The notes under the pieces were generated by a model. The model ran no database searches. It worked only from the letters and a program-made list of their open reading frames with translations, and was not told where the DNA came from. Shown here piece after piece: positions 54,772-64,000 of a stretch of DNA of 64,000 bases. The translations under genes were made by a program, and so were the position numbers. How positions within the stretch are numbered: position 1 is the stretch's first letter; every line of letters begins with the position of its first letter. The DNA is from Hormoscilla sp. GUM202 (lineage in GTDB: Bacteria > Cyanobacteriota > Cyanobacteriia > Cyanobacteriales > Desertifilaceae): NCBI GenBank assembly GCA_005518205.2, contig RFFC02000028.1:1-64000 (forward strand). Direction: 5' to 3'.

Positions 54772-55256
54772 CTGTCCAATTAGTCCAGTCTTTAAGTCAG
54801 AGTTTTCTGACTTTTGAGAGTGCTTGTCGGATTTGGGGGGAGGTAAAAACCCAGACACCGCAGTTAGCGACTGCGAGATTGGGATTAATTTTATTCTTTC
54901 AGCAAATCCTGAAATTGTTGCTATCAGAGGTTTTGGGCGTTTTTGCTCCCAGCGAAATTTAAAGTTTGAAAAAAAAATTTGCTTTAGGGGGTGACAAATA
55001 GATATTAGTGGGTTATAGTAAGAACCGTGTGAGGAGCGAACCAGTGAGGGCACCGAGACGAAACACGGCCAGTCGTCGGTGCCCTTTCTGATCTCCACCA
55101 CCGCATCCATTGAGCAGTTATCAGTGGGCAGTGACCACGTACCATGCCTCCTGACCACTCCCCCGCATAGTTTCTGGCGAGCAATATTTATATATTGCTA
55201 CAAATATCATGTTATAAATTGACGATTTGCGATTCGCAATTGACAATTTGGCATTT

Positions 55257-55834
55257 ATGACATATTGCCTTGGCATCACAACCAAATCGCTGTCGTGTGG
55301 CTTGTTCTGGTGGCTCTACGAACTTCCGGTCTGGCTGTGTCCCCTCTGGGGGATATCGAAGCAGCTGGGGTGGTCAAAACCCGTCGATCGTTTATGGGCC
55401 CTCCCAGCTGTCGGTTACCCCTGTAGGGGCGAAGCATTCTTCCGCGAATTATGACATAAATTGACATATGTAATCTCCTCAGGCTTCGCCCTGCACCCCG
55501 CGAGGATATCCCCGTACCAACTGTTTTTGACCACACCCAAGCCGCTGACTCTCGTACCAATGCCGGAGTAGATTATATTTCCACCTACCGGAAACTGTTT
55601 GATTTTTCCCTGCCTGGTGAAAGAGTAATTATACTCTGTACATCGGGAAACCTGTCAATCACGCAAGCGGTGATTGCGGGATTGCGCAAAGACATTAAAG
55701 TGCAACAAGAGGTGAATCTCCATAATATCCCCACCATGTATGAAATTGCCCGTTATATTGAGGGGAAAATTAGGCAAATTTTGGAACCGGACCGAACTTG
55801 GTTACAGCAAGATGGAATTTATGGCTCTTCGTAA
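55257..55834 (+). pseudogene. Anbu-type proteasome-like peptidase gene, disrupted by a 251-bp insert and truncated
   Basis: Codons 1-11 at 55257-55289 read MTYCLGITTKS. After an insert (55290-55540) the frame resumes AADSRTNAGVDYISTYRKLF, DFSLPGERVIILCTSGNLSI and TQAVIAGLRKDIKVQQEV, then MYEIARYIEGKIRQIL, ending at TAA 55832-55834. This is the beginning of Anbu (ancestral beta subunit), an NTN-hydrolase relative of the 20S proteasome normally about 240 aa. Only about 108 residues remain and the insert breaks the N-terminus. The insert carries inverted GTGGTCAAAA and GGGGATATC motifs. Confidence 0.78.
55290..55540. mobile_element. Palindrome-rich insert in the Anbu gene
   Basis: The insert contains GGGGGATATCGAAGCAGC and GGGGTGGTCAAAACCCGT on the left and the inverted GAGGATATCCCCGTACCAAC with GTTTTTGACCACACCCAAGC on the right. 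A related TACCAACGGGTTTTGACCAC sequence occurs at 7766-7790. It carries no gene. Confidence 0.55.
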
Positions 55835-56002
55835 AATGGTATGCGTTCATTGCCCTCAAAAGAACCTCAAAGCCTGGGTTTGAGGTTGTCGTAGAACGCG
55901 ATAGACTTTCATAGCAAGGCACAACAGCGTTGGAACCAGCAAAGGTAGAAGGGTTTCAGCCGCATTAGCTATAAGTTTGGCATACTAGGTTGAGAAGAGC
56001 GG

Positions 56003-56942
56003 ATGGGGTCGAGCCCGGAGTCGCCTCCGAACCCTCCCTTTCAAAACCGGACTTGTGATTTTCACCACATCCGGCTCCTGGTTGGTGGTCCCTTTTCCTG
56101 GGCAGCTCTTGGTTGAGTTACCTCTCCCTAGCCTTGTCTTGTGATGTTTCACCTTTCTTGTAAGACGAGATTAGCGCCCGGCTCCGGAGGGTTCGTGCGG
56201 GGAAAGACGTAAAACCCATTAACGCACTCTTTACTAACATCCCGGCCTCCTTGGGCCCTCATACTTTATTACCTGGCCTAGGTCCACGTCCACCATGTAT
56301 ACTTAGACTCAAGGTCTAGTTCCGTACCGTTTTGGGGCTACTCCATCCTTCAACTTCCCACCATATCCGTCCTATGTCGGCATATCCTGAGCGTTACCCC
56401 AGGCATTGGCTTTTTAGGACATCCCTCCCCTGTTGGCTTTCGCTTATCATCTAACTTATCTCCTGGTCGGTTAATCGTCTAATGAGAACGGTTTTGCCGG
56501 TCCATAGATTGCACAACAGAGGTTATAACGTTCCATAGAATCCATACGATGCTTTTAGGCCCCTGCATTACCCCGGGAGGATTTTAGTGATACGGGATCG
56601 CTACAATCGACGGCTATCCACTCCTACCATTGCCTTTTGGCTCCAGCGCATAAAGCCTTATTTCGCTGGTTACAAGTGACGAGGCTTATACAGATTCACT
56701 TATCGTTGACCGTGAGCATCTTTCCTAGCGGAGTCGCCGGTTTAGGCTACCAGCGATCCTACATTTGAGTCCCTGCTCTCCACCGCCGGTGATGTCACTC
56801 CGCAGCAGTTGGGACCGGTGTACCTCCCGTATCCGGAGGGTGGGGTTTGGACCCACAAGGATTCCACAGTTCTCCGGCTAATGAGACCGATTTGAGCTGT
56901 CACAAGTTTATTGATACTTATTTACGCCCGAACGTTTCGCAC
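56003..56942 (-). ncRNA. ORF-less group II intron, copy 3 (minus strand)
   Basis: Read on the minus strand: 5' end GTGCGAAACGTTCGGGCGTA, nearly matching copy 1 (GTGCGATTCGTTCCGGCGTA). Then TCATTAGCCGGAGAACTGTG, GGTAGCCTAAACCGGCGACT and TAAGCCTCGTCACTTGTAAC follow. Domain V is AGCCGGATGTGGTGAAAATC... (56045-56076), with the 3' end CTCGACCCCAT at 56003. No maturase frame is present. It inserts into sequence for which I recognise no gene. Confidence 0.85.
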
Positions 56943-57362
56943 CGAATTGATTTTGTCTGTAACTTTATGTTGAGGAGTCAAATCAAAGGGTAACATCAAG
57001 AACTTTATCTAATTTCCTCTCAGGGAAACTGTCTGCAAGCTACCCCAGAGTTCCCCCTCTGATAGACTGTCGATCTCGTAGCGTGCGCGCAGCGATGTAC
57101 TCGGCGAGGGGAGCGCTAATCGCACTACCCCTCGCACATCGCGCACTCGTTTCTATCAAAGCCGCAGATTCTGGGCGTGGCATGCTGGCAGTGGCAAAAA
57201 GTTCGTCGTAGAAGTCCCCTGGATCCTATGATGTAAACTGCACGGGATATTTTCTGCGATTGAGATCGATATTTATCATGCAGGTTCGTAGTGAGGACTA
57301 AAGTCCTCAAGCGGGTAAGCCATAAAGTGTGTCTTACTGCGAACCTAAAGTACTAACTAGGA
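56943..57362. other. Region upstream of the polysaccharide exporter genes
   Basis: No gene recognised. It contains a family hairpin (57092-57142) and a GTAGTGAGGACTAAAGTCCT palindrome (about 57285-57305) like the tandem repeats at 21203. The promoter of the exporter operon probably lies near 57310-57360. Confidence 0.55.
57092..57142 (+). repeat. Hairpin repeat with conserved loop
   Basis: GCGATGT and GCGAGGGG on the left pair with CCCCTCGC and ACATCGC on the right, around AGCGCTAATCGCACTA, the clearest single example of the family loop outside genes. Confidence 0.8.
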
Positions 57363-58163
57363 ATGACTTATAACCGGTGGTCGCCGAAAGCTAATCTGTT
57401 GCTGACTCTGGTGCAGCGGGATTTGGAAGCCCGATACAAGGGCTCCGTTCTGGGTAATTTGTGGCCTTTGTTGAACCATCTGTCACAGTTGCTGATCTAT
57501 ACCTATGTCTTCTCGATCGTCCTCAAGGTGAAGCTCAGTTTGTCTGGTGTACCGGCTAACAATTTGACCTTTGGCCTGTGGCTGTTCGCTGGCTTGCTGC
57601 CTTGGACGACCTTTATTACTGGCCTCTTGCAAGCCTCTACTTCTGCGATCGCCCAGCCAAATTTGGTCAAGAAGGTAGTCTTTCCTTTGGCCTTGTTGCC
57701 TCTGGTGCCGATTTTTGCGGCTTTTATTGAAAGTGGATTGGGAATGCTGGCCTTAATTATCTTCACTAGCTTGTTCTCCCAGACCCTTTATGGTACTATC
57801 TGGCTTTTGCCCCTGGTCTGGTTGCCCCAGCTGTTGCTGACCATGGGCCTGGGTTACTTGGCCGCTGGATTGACCGTGTTTCTCCGGGATGTGCCCCAAA
57901 CCCTTGCAGTCCTGATTAATCTCTGGTTCTATGTCACCCCGATCGTCTATCCTGCTAATGTGATTCCCGAACCTTGGCGGGCCTGGGTGCTTTGGCTTAA
58001 CCCCTTGGCGGCGATCGTCCAGGTCTATCGCGACCTAATTCTCACGGGACAGGTAGAGCATGTGGCCGAATGGGCGATCGCCACATTTGTTTCTATCTTA
58101 GTCTTCTCAGGTGGCTTCTGGGTTTATCAACGCCTGCGCCCAGCTTTTGCTGATGTCCTCTAG
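57363..58163 (+). CDS. Polysaccharide ABC exporter permease (Wzm type)
   Basis: A 266-aa ABC-2-type permease for O-antigen, capsule or teichoic-acid-like glycans. The N-terminus LLTLVQRDLEARYKGSVLGN followed by LWPLLNHLSQLLIYTYVFSI is a hallmark of Wzm/TagG proteins. Six helices follow, with GLWLFAGLLPWTTFITGLLQ and the C-terminal LNPLAAIVQVYRDLILTGQ. It pairs with the Wzt-type ATPase at 58444, after a 280-bp gap full of palindromes. Confidence 0.9.
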   Translation: MTYNRWSPKANLLLTLVQRDLEARYKGSVLGNLWPLLNHLSQLLIYTYVFSIVLKVKLSLSGVPANNLTFGLWLFAGLLPWTTFITGLLQASTSAIAQPNLVKKVVFPLALLPLVPIFAAFIESGLGMLALIIFTSLFSQTLYGTIWLLPLVWLPQLLLTMGLGYLAAGLTVFLRDVPQTLAVLINLWFYVTPIVYPANVIPEPWRAWVLWLNPLAAIVQVYRDLILTGQVEHVAEWAIATFVSILVFSGGFWVYQRLRPAFADVL

Positions 58164-58238: not shown

Positions 58239-58443
58239 ATAATTGGTACAAAACCCGTCTGGGTTCGCTCGTTCCCTGACGAAGGCAGGGAACGTCTTCG
58301 GGAGGCAGAGCCTCCAGTCGGAATCATTGCTTCTAGACTAGCCTGGAGGCGGAGCCTCTAAAGCCGCGTTACCAGGCTTCCCCTGGTAACGAGATGAAAC
58401 GAGAACCCACCCTACACTCAACTTGAGATTACAGCCAGAAAGA

Positions 58444-59793
58444 ATGAGTGAAATTGCCATTTCACTAAAGAAAATATCCAAGTGCTTTCAGCGCTATGCC
58501 CGTCCGGCGGACCGCCTGAAACAGCTCCTGTTTCCTGGTAAAAGTCTGGCACAGAAGTTTTGGGCTTTGCACGATATTAACTTGGAAGTCCCTAAAGGAC
58601 AGACTCTGGGTATTGTCGGACGCAATGGTTCTGGGAAAAGTACCCTGCTGCAAATTATTGCTGCTACTCTCACGCCGACTACGGGTACAGTTGAGGTCGG
58701 GGGAAGAATTTCGGCTCTCTTAGAACTTGGCAGCGGCTTTAACCCGGAGTTTACCGGTCGGCAAAATGTCTTTTTTAATGGACAACTGTTGGGACTCAGT
58801 CGCCGGGAAATCGAGGATAAATTTGATGATATCGCTAGTTTTGCTGAGATTGGGGATTTTCTCGAACAGCCTGTTAAAACTTACTCTAGTGGCATGTTCG
58901 TGCGCTTGGCTTTTGCTGTCGCTACTAGCGCTGAACCTGATATCTTAATTGTGGATGAGGCCCTTTCCGTGGGTGATGAAGCTTTCCAACGTAAGTGTTT
59001 TGCTCGCATTCAAGATATTCGCGATCGGGGGGGGACGATTTTGTTTGTTTCCCATGCTGCTGCCACTATCGTGGAATTGTGCGATCGGGCGATCTTATTA
59101 GACGGCGGCGAACTTATTTTGCAAGGGAGTCCCAAGCTGGTTGTTTCTAAATATCAGGAGTTGATTTATGCCCCGAGCGATCGGGTAGCATCTTTACGGC
59201 AAGAACTCCGCCAAACAAATCAAAAATTGCTGGATGAGACTAATATAATAATCGGCTCAAAGAATATCGACTTAAATGGTAATCTTGAAGAAGAGATGCC
59301 AGAATTTTACGACCCTTCCCTAAATCCGGAAAACACGATATCCTACATTAGCAGGGGGGCGAAAATTATCAATCCCGGGATAACTACGATCGCCACCGGT
59401 CAACTGGTAAATCATTTGATCGGGCGTCGGGAATACCTTTACAGCTATGGAGTTCGATTTTTGCGGCCCGCCCAGAATGTCCGGTTTGGCATGCTGATTA
59501 AAACTGTCAGTGGATTGGAGTTGGGAGGGGCTTCCTTTTCTCCTTCTTTTCATGATATCATGGATTTCGAGGCCGAGCAAGTAGTAACGGTGAAATTTAG
59601 ATTTCACTGCCTGCTGCATCCGGGAGTTTATTTCTTGAATGCCGGAGTATCTGGTATGGTGGATGGAGAATTCGTTTACTTAGCCCGCTGTATAGATGCA
59701 GCTATATTTAGAGTAAAATCAGAGCAGAAATTATGTGGGAATGGTACGATAGATTTTAATATTCAACCCAGTTTGAGTTTGTCGGAGGAGTGA
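58444..59793 (+). CDS. Polysaccharide ABC exporter ATPase (Wzt type) with C-terminal glycan-binding domain
   Basis: A 449-aa ATPase. Walker A is TLGIVGRNGSGKSTLLQIIA, then the Wzt-typical ISALLELGSGFNPEFTGRQN. The signature is TYSSGMFVRLAFAVATSAEP, Walker B DILIVDEALSVGDEAFQRKC and the H-loop LFVSHAAATIVELCDRAILL. After about residue 245 a linker leads to a Wzt C-terminal beta-sandwich (about 320-445; FLRPAQNVRFGMLIKTVSGL, HPGVYFLNAGVSGMVDGEFV) that selects the glycan to be exported. ATG at 58444. The stop is 9 bases before the next start. Confidence 0.92.
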   Translation: MSEIAISLKKISKCFQRYARPADRLKQLLFPGKSLAQKFWALHDINLEVPKGQTLGIVGRNGSGKSTLLQIIAATLTPTTGTVEVGGRISALLELGSGFNPEFTGRQNVFFNGQLLGLSRREIEDKFDDIASFAEIGDFLEQPVKTYSSGMFVRLAFAVATSAEPDILIVDEALSVGDEAFQRKCFARIQDIRDRGGTILFVSHAAATIVELCDRAILLDGGELILQGSPKLVVSKYQELIYAPSDRVASLRQELRQTNQKLLDETNIIIGSKNIDLNGNLEEEMPEFYDPSLNPENTISYISRGAKIINPGITTIATGQLVNHLIGRREYLYSYGVRFLRPAQNVRFGMLIKTVSGLELGGASFSPSFHDIMDFEAEQVVTVKFRFHCLLHPGVYFLNAGVSGMVDGEFVYLARCIDAAIFRVKSEQKLCGNGTIDFNIQPSLSLSEE

Positions 59794-59802
59794 GAACGGT
59801 AG

Positions 59803-61773
59803 ATGATGCAGTCAGAAGAGATATTATATCCAGATGAGACTTACCCAGCTATTCAAGAGTTGATTCGCGATCGGGTTAAGTACCCAGAGTCATTTAAGTC
59901 CGGAATTAGCAGTCGGGACGAAATGTATTTATATGCTTTAAATAATGCTAAAGGCGATCGGGTAGAAGCTGCCAGGCGCTACTATAGAAATGGTAGTCGC
60001 ATTATGGATGCAGTTCGGGAGATAATCGTGAGGTACAGGGGGGGATTCGATCGCCTGAACTCTTTCCTAGATTTTGCCTGCGGTTACGGACGCTTGACTC
60101 GCTTTACGATCCAGGAAATGCCCCCTGCCAGAATTTGGGTATCGGACATTGACGCCGCTGCGGTAAAATTTCAAATAGCCCAATTTGGAGTCAATGGCAT
60201 AGTTTCCACGACTAATCCTCAAGATTATCATCCTACGGACCGGTTCGATCTGATTCTGGCGAGTTCCTTTTTTAGCCACGTGCCCGAGAAAACCTTTGCT
60301 CGTTGGCTACAAAAACTCTATAGTTTACTGTCTGCTGAGGGATTATTGATTTTCAGCGTCCACGACGGCGCCCTATTTCCTGGTAAGATGGCAGGAGAAA
60401 TTCATTTTATCCCCCAGAGTGAGAGTCGGTCCCTGGACGGGCAAGAATATGGTACAACTTATGTCAGGGAAACTTTTGTCAGTAACGCGATCGGGCAATG
60501 CGGCGATGTCAAATATCAGCGACGACCCCAGGGATTGTGCGGACACCAAGATTTATATATAATGGGTAAAGGGAGTAAGGGTTTAGGACCGGCAATGGAA
60601 TCAAAAGTGCTGGCGATCGCGGGGATGCATCGTTCGGGAACATCTTTAACTGCTTCTGTACTCCAGAGTGCGGGAGTATATTTGGGTGATAGGTTAGTCG
60701 GGGTAGATGTGGGAAATGATAAAGGTCATTTTGAAGATGTAGATTTTGTCGAGTTTCACAAGCAGGTCCTGCGATCGCAGTCTCTGGACGCCGATGGCCT
60801 GACTTTCCAGGACTCTCAGCATGTGGCCGATCGCTATGTTAAAATAGCCCAAGACCTGACGCAGGAAAAATCACAACATTCCCTCTGGGGTTGGAAGGAT
60901 CCGAGGACGACTTTGTTTTTGGACTTCTGGTTGCAGTTACTCCCGGATGCGAATTTTATCCTCGTCTATCGATCGCCTTGGGAGGTAGTTGACTCCCTTT
61001 ACCGCCGGGGGACGGACGAACCGATCGCAGCTTACCCGGAAAAGGCAGTGGAACTCTGGATGCATTATAATCAAAAAATTCTGGAATTTTACGACCGCGT
61101 CCCCGATCGCTGTCTGCTAGCTAACCTCAGCAAAATTGTCAGTAATCCTCAGCTATTGATCCAGACAATTAATGAAAAATTTCAGCTCAATTTAACGGAA
61201 CCAAGACATGATATAATAGCACCAGAACTATTGGGGCAGTCAGTTGGTCGGACCCATAGACCGGTATTGATCAAAAAATACTGGACTGCCGCATTAGATC
61301 TATATCTAGCGTTGGATGCCAAGGCGGCACCAATGGATGGAGAACCGAGTTGGTCTTGGTCTCAATATGTGAAGTCATACTCGCCCCAAGACTGGGGTTT
61401 TCGAGATTGGTTGGAAATAGGTAGTCTGAAAAATCAAATTAAACAGCTGCAAAAAACGGCGGGCGATCGCGCGGAACTTCAGCAAACTCAAGGGGAACTG
61501 CAAGAGACGCGATCGCAACTGCAAGCAACCCAGTCGGAACTGCAAGCAACTCAGTCCCAGTACCAGCAGCTACAGACAGAAGCGCAAGAGTTGCAGTTGC
61601 AGTTGGAGGAGACGCAAATGCATCTGTCGGAAACGCGATCGCAGTTGGACAAAACTCAGGTAAAACTGCTTGCATGTGAAAGTCAAATAGCTGCCATGGA
61701 AACCAGCAAGTTTTGGCGATTACGGAAAAGATGGTTTAAGGTGAAAAGGTGGATGGGTTTAACAACGGAGTGA
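59803..61773 (+). CDS. Methyltransferase-sulfotransferase fusion with coiled-coil tail
   Basis: A 656-aa multidomain protein. Residues 1-250: class I methyltransferase with LDFACGYGRLTRFTIQEMP, WVSDIDAAAVKFQ and FDLILASSFFSHVPEKTFAR. Residues about 268-500: sulfotransferase-type P-loop domain (VLAIAGMHRSGTSLTASVLQ; GWKDPRTTLFLDFWLQLL; FILVYRSPWEVVDSLYR). Residues about 545-640: Gln/Leu-rich coiled coil (QLQATQSELQATQSQYQQLQ), then a basic end WRLRKRWFKVKRWMGL. It follows the Wzt gene by 9 bases and probably methylates and sulfates, or caps, the exported glycan. A PAPS-dependent sulfotransfer is an inference from the fold. Confidence 0.83.
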   Translation: MMQSEEILYPDETYPAIQELIRDRVKYPESFKSGISSRDEMYLYALNNAKGDRVEAARRYYRNGSRIMDAVREIIVRYRGGFDRLNSFLDFACGYGRLTRFTIQEMPPARIWVSDIDAAAVKFQIAQFGVNGIVSTTNPQDYHPTDRFDLILASSFFSHVPEKTFARWLQKLYSLLSAEGLLIFSVHDGALFPGKMAGEIHFIPQSESRSLDGQEYGTTYVRETFVSNAIGQCGDVKYQRRPQGLCGHQDLYIMGKGSKGLGPAMESKVLAIAGMHRSGTSLTASVLQSAGVYLGDRLVGVDVGNDKGHFEDVDFVEFHKQVLRSQSLDADGLTFQDSQHVADRYVKIAQDLTQEKSQHSLWGWKDPRTTLFLDFWLQLLPDANFILVYRSPWEVVDSLYRRGTDEPIAAYPEKAVELWMHYNQKILEFYDRVPDRCLLANLSKIVSNPQLLIQTINEKFQLNLTEPRHDIIAPELLGQSVGRTHRPVLIKKYWTAALDLYLALDAKAAPMDGEPSWSWSQYVKSYSPQDWGFRDWLEIGSLKNQIKQLQKTAGDRAELQQTQGELQETRSQLQATQSELQATQSQYQQLQTEAQELQLQLEETQMHLSETRSQLDKTQVKLLACESQIAAMETSKFWRLRKRWFKVKRWMGLTTE

Positions 61774-61795
61774 GAATAATTACCGGAGATCGGAA

Positions 61796-63166
61796 ATGAC
61801 GAAAAATATTAAAGAAATAATCAAAGCAGTAAAGAAAAGGCTGAAACCCCTGAAATCATTGATGATTAAACCAAGACAGCAAGAGGTGAACCCGACAGGA
61901 GAATTACTGGGATATTTAGAATCTCCCCAGGCGATGGAGAAAAATCTAAACGGCACCCTGCGGGTATCGGGATGGATATTGCACAAACAGGCGAAAATTA
62001 CTGCCTTGATGTTGGCGCAGTCGGGTTTCCCAGAAGAACAGATCGCCTACGGGATAGAGAGACCGGATGTCGCTGGAGTTTTTCCAGAAATTGCCAGTGC
62101 CCAGACAAGCGGGTTTGAGAGGAAAATTATCCTAGACCGGAATTATACGAGTAAAATAAATATTGAGATTTGGGCAATTCTGGAAAATGGCGATCGCCTT
62201 TGTTGCTTTACGCGAGTCCTGACAAAGGATGGCCAGGTCCAAGATGATAGTCCCAGTTTCCAGCGATACCTATTTTTCTATGGGGTTGCACGCAAAGCAT
62301 GGGTGGCCTATAAACAAGGACGCATCCCCTTTTTATCTAGAGTGGGGCGTCAAGCATGGGTTGTCTATAAACAAGGACGCCTCCTCTGGGGACAAGATGT
62401 ATTATATCCAGATAAGATTCACCCAGCTATACAAGAGTTGATTCGCGATCGGGTTAAGTACCCAGAGTCATTTAATTCCGGAATCAGCAGTTGGGACGAA
62501 ATCTATCAGCATGAGTTAAAGAGTGTTAAAGGCGATCGGGTCGAGGCGGGCATGCGCTACTATCGAAATGGTAGTATGATTATGGATGCAGTCCGGGAAC
62601 TCATCATGAAGTACAGGGGGGGGTTCGATCGCCTGGACTCTTTCCTAGATTTTGCCTGCGGTTACGGACGATCGACCCGCTTTCCGATCCAGGAAATGCC
62701 CGCTAGCCACATTTGGGTATCGGATATTGACGCCACTGCGGTAAAATTTCAAATGGCGCAATTTGGAGTCAATGGCATAGTTTCCACGACTAATCCAGAA
62801 GAATATAATAGCGATCGCCGGTTTGACGTGATTGTGGCGAGTTCCTTTTTTAGTCACATTCCCGAAAAAACATTTACTAAGTGGATGCAAAAACTCTATA
62901 GCTTAGTTTCTCCTAATGGTATGCTGATTTTCAGCGTTCACGATCGTTCCCTATTTCCCGATAGTCTGAATGCAGAAATTTATTTTATCCCCCAGAGTGA
63001 GAGTCAGTACCTCGATCGGCAAGAATATGGTACAACTTATGTGACAGAAGAGTTTGTCAGCAAAGTGATTCAGGAAGTGACGGGAGGTGAGGCAAAATAT
63101 CAGCGCTTGCCGAAAGGACTGTGCAAGCATCAAGATATATATATAGTCAACAAGCTTGATGTTTAA
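61796..63166 (+). CDS. Paralogous methyltransferase with an N-terminal glycan-module domain
   Basis: A 456-aa protein. Residues 35-145 form a domain (LLGYLESPQAMEKNLNGTLR, VSGWILHKQAKITALMLAQS, NGDRLCCFTRVL) repeated at the start of the next gene. Residues 205-455 are a close paralog of the methyltransferase half of the preceding gene (ELIRDRVKYPESFNSGISSW, FLDFACGYGRSTRFPIQEMP, VIVASSFFSHIPEKTFTKWM). Residues 155-200 include two similar VARKAWVAYKQGR-like units. Gap to the upstream gene is 22 bases. Domain reshuffling within this operon is evident. Confidence 0.85.
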   Translation: MTKNIKEIIKAVKKRLKPLKSLMIKPRQQEVNPTGELLGYLESPQAMEKNLNGTLRVSGWILHKQAKITALMLAQSGFPEEQIAYGIERPDVAGVFPEIASAQTSGFERKIILDRNYTSKINIEIWAILENGDRLCCFTRVLTKDGQVQDDSPSFQRYLFFYGVARKAWVAYKQGRIPFLSRVGRQAWVVYKQGRLLWGQDVLYPDKIHPAIQELIRDRVKYPESFNSGISSWDEIYQHELKSVKGDRVEAGMRYYRNGSMIMDAVRELIMKYRGGFDRLDSFLDFACGYGRSTRFPIQEMPASHIWVSDIDATAVKFQMAQFGVNGIVSTTNPEEYNSDRRFDVIVASSFFSHIPEKTFTKWMQKLYSLVSPNGMLIFSVHDRSLFPDSLNAEIYFIPQSESQYLDRQEYGTTYVTEEFVSKVIQEVTGGEAKYQRLPKGLCKHQDIYIVNKLDV

Positions 63167-63193
63167 CGTGAGAATAATTACAGGATAATTAAC

Positions 63194-64000
63194 ATGGTAA
63201 TCTGGATAAAAGAATCGATCGAAGCAGTAAAAACTAAGTTAAAAATACTGAAAAAAATAATTATCAAATCAGGGCAGCAAAAGGCGATGGCGACAGGAGA
63301 ATTGCTGGGATATTTAGAATCTCCCCAGGGGATAGAGAAAAATATAAACGGCACCCTGGAAATATCGGGATGGGTATTGCATAAAACCGAAAAAATTACA
63401 GCCTTGATGTTGGCGCGATCGGGTTTACCAGAAGAACAGATCGCCTATGGGATCGCCAGACCTGATGTCGCCCAAGTTTTCCCGGAAATTGCTGGGGCCG
63501 AAGCCAGCGGGTTCGGGTGGAACATTCTTCTAGACCGGAATTATACGGGGAAAGTAAAGATTGAGATTTGGGCAATGCTGGAAAATGGCGATCGCATTTG
63601 TTGCTTTGCAGCGAAAACGAAAGTCATGGCATCGGTCCCAGACGATCGTCGCAGCAATTTAAACCTATACCTATTTTTATCTACTGTCGCACGCAAAGCC
63701 TGGGTTGTTTATCAGCAAGGACGCCTGCCCCTGTCTCCCATTGTCTGGATCCGCTATCTCCGTCGCTATTACCGACAACTTAACGTCAGCGTAGAATATG
63801 CTAACGTCATTCATCCCTGGCAAAAGCAAGACCCCTATCAGCGATGGATAGAAATAAATCGCCTGACACCCAAGTTGTTGTCCCGGATGCAAGCAGATGC
63901 CGAAAAGCTGCAACCCGAAGCGGTCAAAATTAGTGTTGTTGTCCCAGTCTACAATACCCCCGCCCAATTTCTGCGGGAGGCGATCGCCTCTGTCACCGCC
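63194..64000 (+). CDS. Glycosyltransferase (GT2-type) with the shared N-terminal module, 3' end off the window
   Basis: An open frame of 269 codons to the window end. It has 27 bases of spacer after the previous stop and starts MVIWIKESIEAVKTKLKILK. Residues 36-145 repeat the module of the preceding gene (LLGYLESPQGIEKNINGTLE, ISGWVLHKTEKITALMLARS, RPDVAQVFPEIAGAEASGF). From about residue 243 a GT2 nucleotide-sugar-binding start appears: VKISVVVPVYNTPAQFLREA. It is probably a large glycosyltransferase of the same surface-glycan locus. The function of the N-terminal module is unknown; a beta-rich carbohydrate-binding role is a guess. Confidence 0.82.
   Translation, partial: MVIWIKESIEAVKTKLKILKKIIIKSGQQKAMATGELLGYLESPQGIEKNINGTLEISGWVLHKTEKITALMLARSGLPEEQIAYGIARPDVAQVFPEIAGAEASGFGWNILLDRNYTGKVKIEIWAMLENGDRICCFAAKTKVMASVPDDRRSNLNLYLFLSTVARKAWVVYQQGRLPLSPIVWIRYLRRYYRQLNVSVEYANVIHPWQKQDPYQRWIEINRLTPKLLSRMQADAEKLQPEAVKISVVVPVYNTPAQFLREAIASVTA

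Follow-up and report, generated by a model that had tools for sequence, protein, structure and literature searches.

Organization of the locus

The window analyzed here is the stretch from base 1 to base 64,000 of a 95,308-base contig (C28) in a cyanobacterial genome of 6.87 Mb. By its listing of open reading frames (ORFs), wzm, wzt, MT-ST-CC, SGW-MT, and SGW-GT2-GT2-GT4 follow one another in this order, all on the plus strand, and the ORFs located 3′ of the last gene are on the opposite strand. The names of the last three genes reflect their modules (MT, methyltransferase; ST, sulfotransferase; CC, coiled coil). The features, with window coordinates unless otherwise stated, are as follows.

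57363..58163, plus strand: wzm, membrane subunit of an ABC glycan exporter, 266 aa (Pfam ABC2_membrane, E 1.2e-18; a conserved partner at related loci)
58423..59793, plus strand: wzt, exporter ATPase subunit (Pfam ABC_tran, E 3.7e-23; Wzt_C, E 1.1e-23)
59803-61773, plus strand: MT-ST-CC, 656 aa (ORF)
59803..60570, plus strand: methyltransferase module 1, residues 1-256 of MT-ST-CC (Pfam Methyltransf_12, E 2.2e-11; SAM motif LDFACGYG)
60598..61302, plus strand: sulfotransferase module, about residues 266-500 of MT-ST-CC (Pfam Sulfotransfer_3, E 3.5e-9)
61411..61770, plus strand: coiled-coil segment and basic SKFWRLRKRWFKVKRW tail, about residues 537-656 of MT-ST-CC (predicted helix with heptad periodicity)
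61472..61553, plus strand: 21-nt tandem repeat, 3.9 copies, encoding coiled-coil heptads of MT-ST-CC (Tandem Repeats Finder score, 78)
61796-63166, plus strand: SGW-MT, 456 aa (ORF)
61796..62230, plus strand: SGW module copy 1, residues 1-145 of SGW-MT (by alignment, and from the Ig-like model of copy 2)
62405..63154, plus strand: methyltransferase module 2, about residues 204-453 of SGW-MT (Pfam Methyltransf_12, E 5.7e-11; 70.7% identity to module 1)
63194-66739 of the contig (first 807 nt inside the window), plus strand: SGW-GT2-GT2-GT4, 1,181 aa (ORF)
63194..63628, plus strand: SGW module copy 2, residues 1-145 of SGW-GT2-GT2-GT4 (AlphaFold pLDDT 86.8; seven-stranded beta-sandwich)
63902..64000, plus strand: start of the first GT2 (Pfam); the gene runs on as L008:7194-10739

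Palindromic GGAGGC(A/G)GAGCCTC elements lie at 58300-58400, in the interval between wzm and wzt, and the approximately 2.2 kb located 5′ of wzm (55159-57362) contain no ORF of at least 100 aa. Beyond the window, a low-complexity array of CCCTGTTCCC-type units at about 68539-69371 of the contig (L008:12539-13371) continues into an ORF for a truncated CobW-like GTPase. At about 80251-85412 (L009:4251-9412), a small cassette is repeated in tandem; of its three copies, two are nearly identical. Each encodes a 152-aa protein and an HTH protein (about 174 aa), to which two of the copies add a protein of 172 aa, a layout that resembles those of toxin-antitoxin systems.

Recurring modules

The two methyltransferase modules share 70.7% of their amino acids and 80% of their nucleotides (BLASTP E 2e-133; dS 0.44), and the two SGW copies are 70% identical within the domain and 65% over a longer segment; at the sequence level, the likeness of both pairs is far above chance. 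The original prediction, made from the letters of the window, described a "nearly identical" methyltransferase module in two adjacent genes, fused once to a sulfotransferase and once to a new N-terminal domain that recurs in the next gene together with a GT2. The duplication stands, although "nearly identical" overstates it, and Pfam domains in both genes confirm the two fusions. The recurrence of the N-terminal (SGW) domain also holds, as does its fusion to a GT2, but the prediction had seen only one GT2 start: when read beyond the right edge of the window, the completed gene encodes two GT2 domains and one GT4 by Pfam, an arrangement of the polymerase type. The SGW domain does lack a Pfam family, yet it is an Ig-like module that is common in this operon family.

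The fold of SGW comes from an AlphaFold model of copy 2 (pLDDT 86.8, from a shallow alignment), an Ig-like beta-sandwich of seven strands whose best match is the Ig-like domain of sulfite dehydrogenase (Z 9.4 over 96 residues at 2.8 Å), with FnIII-like CbhA modules at Z 8.5. Sequence searches assigned the module to no Pfam or PDB family, and the top profile match was 8c4d (E 0.11); the concern that SGW might be a known, unrelated domain was thus not borne out by Pfam, PDB sequence, or profile searches. A relationship of SGW to the Wzt C-domain was rejected by profile comparison. In the modeled stretch, G37, W38, R67, and D69 are invariant among 39 copies. Within its own genome, SGW occurs only in SGW-MT and SGW-GT2-GT2-GT4. 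The modeled fold by itself gives no function, and SGW probably docks the glycan or partner proteins. As a mobile Ig-like module that Pfam does not cover, it merits an entry of its own there.

Catalytic modules and cofactor supply

The methyltransferase combines the sequence motif of class I SAM methyltransferases with their fold, the latter in an AlphaFold model. Its SAM-binding motif, LDFACGYG, appears in 8 of 11 aligned rows, with C or G/S variation at one site, and the model is closest to amino-sugar methyltransferases (CalS10, Z 17.9; TylM1, Z 17.7), with CgnL also among its structural matches. A PDB search returned no sequence match between this methyltransferase and WbdD, and WbdD is absent among the listed fold matches of the model, which excludes no relation between them.

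By sequence and model, the sulfotransferase has the features of the PAPS-dependent enzymes, namely, a 5′ PSB loop (GMHRSGTSL), a 3′ PB motif with its arginine and serine (YRSPWEVVDS), and the fold. Its model superimposes on human TPST-1 with bound PAP (Z 17.1, 219 residues, 3.9 Å) and on the olefin-synthase sulfotransferase 4gox (Z 15.5). Absence of PAPS-binding residues had been named as one of two results that would undermine the prediction. Both motifs are present, and R277, S278, G279, T280, R390, and S398, all alignable to TPST-1, are invariant in 35 of 35 sulfotransferases among the matches listed, so the possibility that this is a degenerate sulfotransferase was rejected. APS kinase makes PAPS, and at seven related loci among the matches listed, the gene for this kinase adjoins the sulfotransferase gene, in two cases (L126 and L057) lying between it and wzt. 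The genome that contains the window also encodes an APS kinase.

A coiled coil whose length varies by heptads

The AlphaFold model of MT-ST-CC, built as a monomer from a shallow alignment of 42 rows (mean pLDDT, 85; pTM, 0.64), consists of two well-predicted globular domains followed by one continuous helix of 94 residues (residues 557-650). Leucines gather at one heptad position (8 of 13), and only 128 of 20,000 shuffles reached the hydrophobic a/d score of the segment. The modeled helix and the heptad bias of its leucines support the coiled coil that had been predicted for the fusion. The methyltransferase and sulfotransferase precede the coiled coil, and relatives keep the order of sulfotransferase, coiled coil, and polymerase. 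What follows the coiled coil is a basic, aromatic SKFWRLRKRWFKVKRW tail here and fused GT modules in relatives. Coiled coils with tails of the SKFWRLRKRWFKVKRW type are also found on many other cyanobacterial glycan proteins, so the combination may be a general tether.

We measured the spacer between sulfotransferase and polymerase side from the end of the sulfotransferase (a conserved DW) to the first SGW domain (a conserved GW) in 23 proteins, in which it ranges from 201 to 515 residues. In 19 of the 23, the spacer is 201, 229, 250, 257, 313, 425, or 495 residues long, and each of these lengths is 5 modulo 7. Two proteins from Planktothrix and kin (258 and 272 residues) differ from one another by whole heptads, as do two from Okeania (438 and 515 residues). 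The chance that seven distinct lengths share one remainder is (1/7)^6, or about 1e-5, a figure to be read with the relatedness of the proteins and some residual dependence in mind. These steps have a counterpart in the DNA: 62 of 101 sulfotransferase genes contain tandem arrays whose period is 21 nt or a multiple of it, as opposed to 37 of 741 other ORFs of at least 250 aa from the same loci, among the matches listed; these counts are approximate, one or two loci having been counted through two collections. For three very large proteins (L112, L125, and L137), the best array is located outside the coiled coil. Maintenance of register while length varies 2.5-fold is what would be expected of a length ruler, which these sequences support without proving, since any coiled coil selected for register might show heptad steps without being a ruler.

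The exporter and its C-terminal domain

As predicted, an exporter of the Wzt type with a candidate glycan-selecting domain stands in front of MT-ST-CC: wzm and wzt are located 5′ of it, and Wzt_C lies behind the ABC ATPase of a protein paired with Wzm. The likelier start of wzt is the ATG at 58444, seven codons in, and residues from about 306 to 444 form the C-terminal domain of the cap-binding type. This wzt is the sole Wzt_C gene in its genome. A profile of the cyanobacterial C-domains matched one solved structure, 2r5o (E 2.8e-8), which the database labels simply a putative ATP-binding component of an ABC transporter; we take this structure for the C-domain with which Wzt of E. coli O9a reads the cap made by WbdD.

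Recurrence of the operon

We scanned about 85,000 species genomes and obtained at least 80 loci; those of related genera cannot be counted as independent. Filamentous cyanobacteria share the operon widely, most often in the form Wzm, Wzt, MT-SGW-CC, and ST-CC-SGW-SGW-GT2-GT2-GT4. In Microcoleus, Tychonema, Kamptonema, Trichodesmium, and Okeania, the exporter precedes an MT-SGW protein, in most cases one with a coiled coil, and this protein precedes the giant one, which places the putative ruler between sulfotransferase and polymerase on the plan of Klebsiella O7 ORF6. The module shuffling noted in the original prediction is real, and the arrangement in the window amounts to a local reshuffle of this conserved operon. 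Methyltransferase and sulfotransferase form one protein in Hormoscilla, Roseofilum, and a genome of the same family (G051) and two proteins elsewhere, and the polymerase is fused to the sulfotransferase in one lineage and free in another; these fusions and splits of MT, ST, SGW, and GT modules mark parts that work together. Roseofilum and G051 may also have, between methyltransferase and sulfotransferase, a divergent SGW-like insert; it was noticed by eye and missed by the SGW profile, and we make no claim for it. Apart from its exporter operon, G051 encodes a second methyltransferase protein of 554 aa with two SGW modules (L042:8455-10119).

Among the matches listed, 34 of 79 sulfotransferase loci have, within a few kilobases, a Wzt with the cap-binding-type domain; 24 of these 34 also have this methyltransferase, and ten are without it. 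Neither gene is nearby at 33 of the 79, some of which are at contig ends, and such ends may explain why Wzt is missing from the surroundings of some sulfotransferases. A few ST-CC genes, however, truly lack a neighboring exporter and sit with an APS kinase gene among housekeeping genes; they are the main evidence for uses of ST-CC beyond capping. At one locus (L085:3965-4951), a gene for a PhyH-type dioxygenase lies between the methyltransferase and sulfotransferase genes behind wzt, a hint that certain strains modify the end in yet another way.

A putative chain terminator and its alternatives

From the domains, folds, and cofactor-binding residues, the conservation of the operon, the spacer quantized in heptads, and the Wzt domain of the cap-binder type, we infer a machine for polymerization, end capping, length control, and cap recognition. 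We consider it rather probable that the locus encodes a glycan chain terminator of the coiled-coil type that depends on an ABC exporter and in which a sulfotransferase replaces the kinase as the second enzyme. SGW-GT2-GT2-GT4 would lengthen a lipid-linked glycan in the cytoplasm, and the coiled coil of MT-ST-CC would carry both catalytic modules at its far end, such that only chains reaching them receive O-methyl and O-sulfate groups at the nonreducing end. These modifications would halt growth, after which the C-domain of Wzt would take the modified end and Wzm/Wzt export the chain. A stable methyl sulfate cap is chemically unlikely, and we therefore expect methyl and sulfate on two separate hydroxyls. 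A methyl/sulfate cap that is read by the exporter was the core of the original prediction, and as far as sequences and models can speak to it, it is partly supported and the best-supported reading.

A single modification, most likely sulfate, could instead serve as both terminator and export signal, leaving methylation as a decoration that varies among lineages. The ten Wzt loci at which ST-CC occurs without this methyltransferase are consistent with such an arrangement, as is the giant protein, which has a sulfotransferase but no methyltransferase at the ruler end, the methyltransferase being on a separate protein with a coiled coil of its own. The pair nevertheless tends to be kept, in that the two are fused in Hormoscilla, Roseofilum, and G051, and at L155 an unlike, unrelated-looking methyltransferase occupies the interval between wzt and the sulfotransferase. 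We regard the single-modification alternative as possible but somewhat improbable.

Within the two-enzyme terminator that we favor, SGW-MT is a duplicate methyltransferase that might serve a second methyl position. In the methyltransferase tree, the SGW-MT copy groups with the methyltransferases of two MT-ST-CC genes of the Hormoscilla type (100/99), and the latter are nearest each other (93/77). By this topology, the duplication probably predates the divergence from Hormoscilla sp. GM7CHS1pb. The operon of that relative (L079) is the nearest among the matches listed, so that the window probably comes from a Hormoscilla or a near relative, and it lacks SGW-MT, probably through loss; a duplication confined to the genome analyzed here was rejected. 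A further fragment of the methyltransferase family, 50% identical over 76 residues, lies near an N stretch on contig C3 (L010:8871-9101; G000:C3:154894-155127), with the rest of the gene missing, and is probably a pseudogene.

It is unlikely, in our judgment, that SGW-MT is instead a by-product of recombination between repeated modules that has little or no function and is being lost. Besides its absence from the closest relative among the matches listed, its branch in the tree is long (0.32, versus 0.05 and 0.10 for the other copies), and the SGW-GT gene of GM7CHS1pb is a mosaic of both window copies, resembling SGW-MT at 38 of 41 informative sites and then SGW-GT at 23 of 25 (38:3, then 2:23; Fisher p about 2e-12; the first 40 columns, which cover the end of the upstream gene, are omitted). 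This mosaic is a sign of recombination between the two SGW modules and, at the sequence level, points to that recombination as the deletion event. Against a gene without function, the SGW-MT frame is open over 456 codons, its SAM motif is intact, and the dN/dS of the module pair, 0.42 to 0.48, indicates that selection has acted on it.

We consider it quite doubtful that the methyltransferase and sulfotransferase decorate the whole chain, yielding a polysaccharide sulfated and methylated throughout. In that case, the coiled coil would do no more than anchor both enzymes at the polymerase, and some other feature of the end would be read by the C-domain of Wzt. Cyanobacteria do make polysaccharides that are sulfated along the chain, such as synechan (PMC8205485), and ST-CC genes exist away from Wzt, but decoration inside the chain would require neither a long ruler that separates sulfotransferase from polymerase and varies in steps of entire heptads nor a Wzt C-domain akin to the known cap-reader type.

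The broader form of the terminator proposal, that sulfotransferase terminators are widespread and make sulfated, methylated ends recognized by Wzt and that glycan length evolves stepwise as the ruler acquires or sheds 21-nt heptad repeats, has in our estimation a nearly even chance of being correct, inclining slightly toward doubt. So far, Wzt is known to recognize methyl, (methyl)phosphate, and Kdo caps (PMC9445017), and a sulfate cap, if real, would be a new export signal beyond these. It would also explain the sulfotransferases beside ABC-type glycan exporters in cyanobacteria, and spacers of 201 to 515 residues in whole heptads would then form a natural series of rulers across species with which to test the model of glycan length.

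Comparison with known systems

Sulfotransferases have been noted in cyanobacterial clusters of the ABC type (PMC8205485) and beside wzt in Aeromonas (PMC4483657), in neither case with a terminator role assigned, and we found no proposal of a sulfotransferase terminator in the open-access literature searched. In the Aeromonas salmonicida wbsalmo cluster, ORF19 is a sulfotransferase-domain gene that, like the one here, comes right after wzt and before a polymerase (of the WbbB type); unlike MT-ST-CC, it stands alone at 216 aa, no sulfate was seen in the O antigen, and its role was left open by the authors (PMC4483657). The xss cluster for synechan in Synechocystis PCC 6803 similarly places cyanobacterial sulfotransferases, two in number, in a surface-glycan cluster, but it uses Wzx/Wzy export, puts sulfate inside the repeat unit (two sulfates per eight sugars), and has neither cap nor ruler (PMC8205485).

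The Wzm/Wzt exporter of Aquifex aeolicus is, like the present one, an ABC transporter with a C-domain, which in Aquifex binds the modified nonreducing end and here would do so; the Aquifex cap is 3-O-methyl-mannose, carrying a methyl group only (PMC9445017). The ATPase halves match at E 8e-74, and the Aquifex C-domain was not recovered by the cyanobacterial C-domain profile.

In the terminators WbdD, WbbB, O4, and O7, a coiled coil holds the terminating enzyme at its distal end, the distribution of polymerase modules varies, and Wzt reads the cap (PMC11231755, PMC3482155, PMC9445017). WbdD of E. coli O9a is, like MT-ST-CC, a single protein in which a methyltransferase, a second transferase, and a coiled coil follow one another and end in a tail, membrane-proximal in WbdD and putatively so in MT-ST-CC; a separate protein supplies the polymerase (WbdA), and the C-domain of Wzt reads the cap (PMC3482155). 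In WbdD, the second transferase is a eukaryote-like kinase and the phosphate itself is methylated. A strict definition by WbdD demands a kinase after the methyltransferase; here, a sulfotransferase occupies that position. Klebsiella pneumoniae O7 ORF6 resembles the present system in its N-terminal methyltransferase and second transferase, its Ig-like domain, coiled coil, and two GT2 modules, and the adjacent wzm/wzt (PMC11231755). Kelly et al. found CgnL to be the structure closest to their model of the O7 terminator methyltransferase (PMC11231755), and the methyltransferase model here matches CgnL as well. Set against the published description of O7, the cyanobacterial system has a sulfotransferase instead of a kinase, distributes methyltransferase and sulfotransferase over one or two proteins, adds a GT4, and, in the giant protein, places the Ig-like module after the coiled coil.
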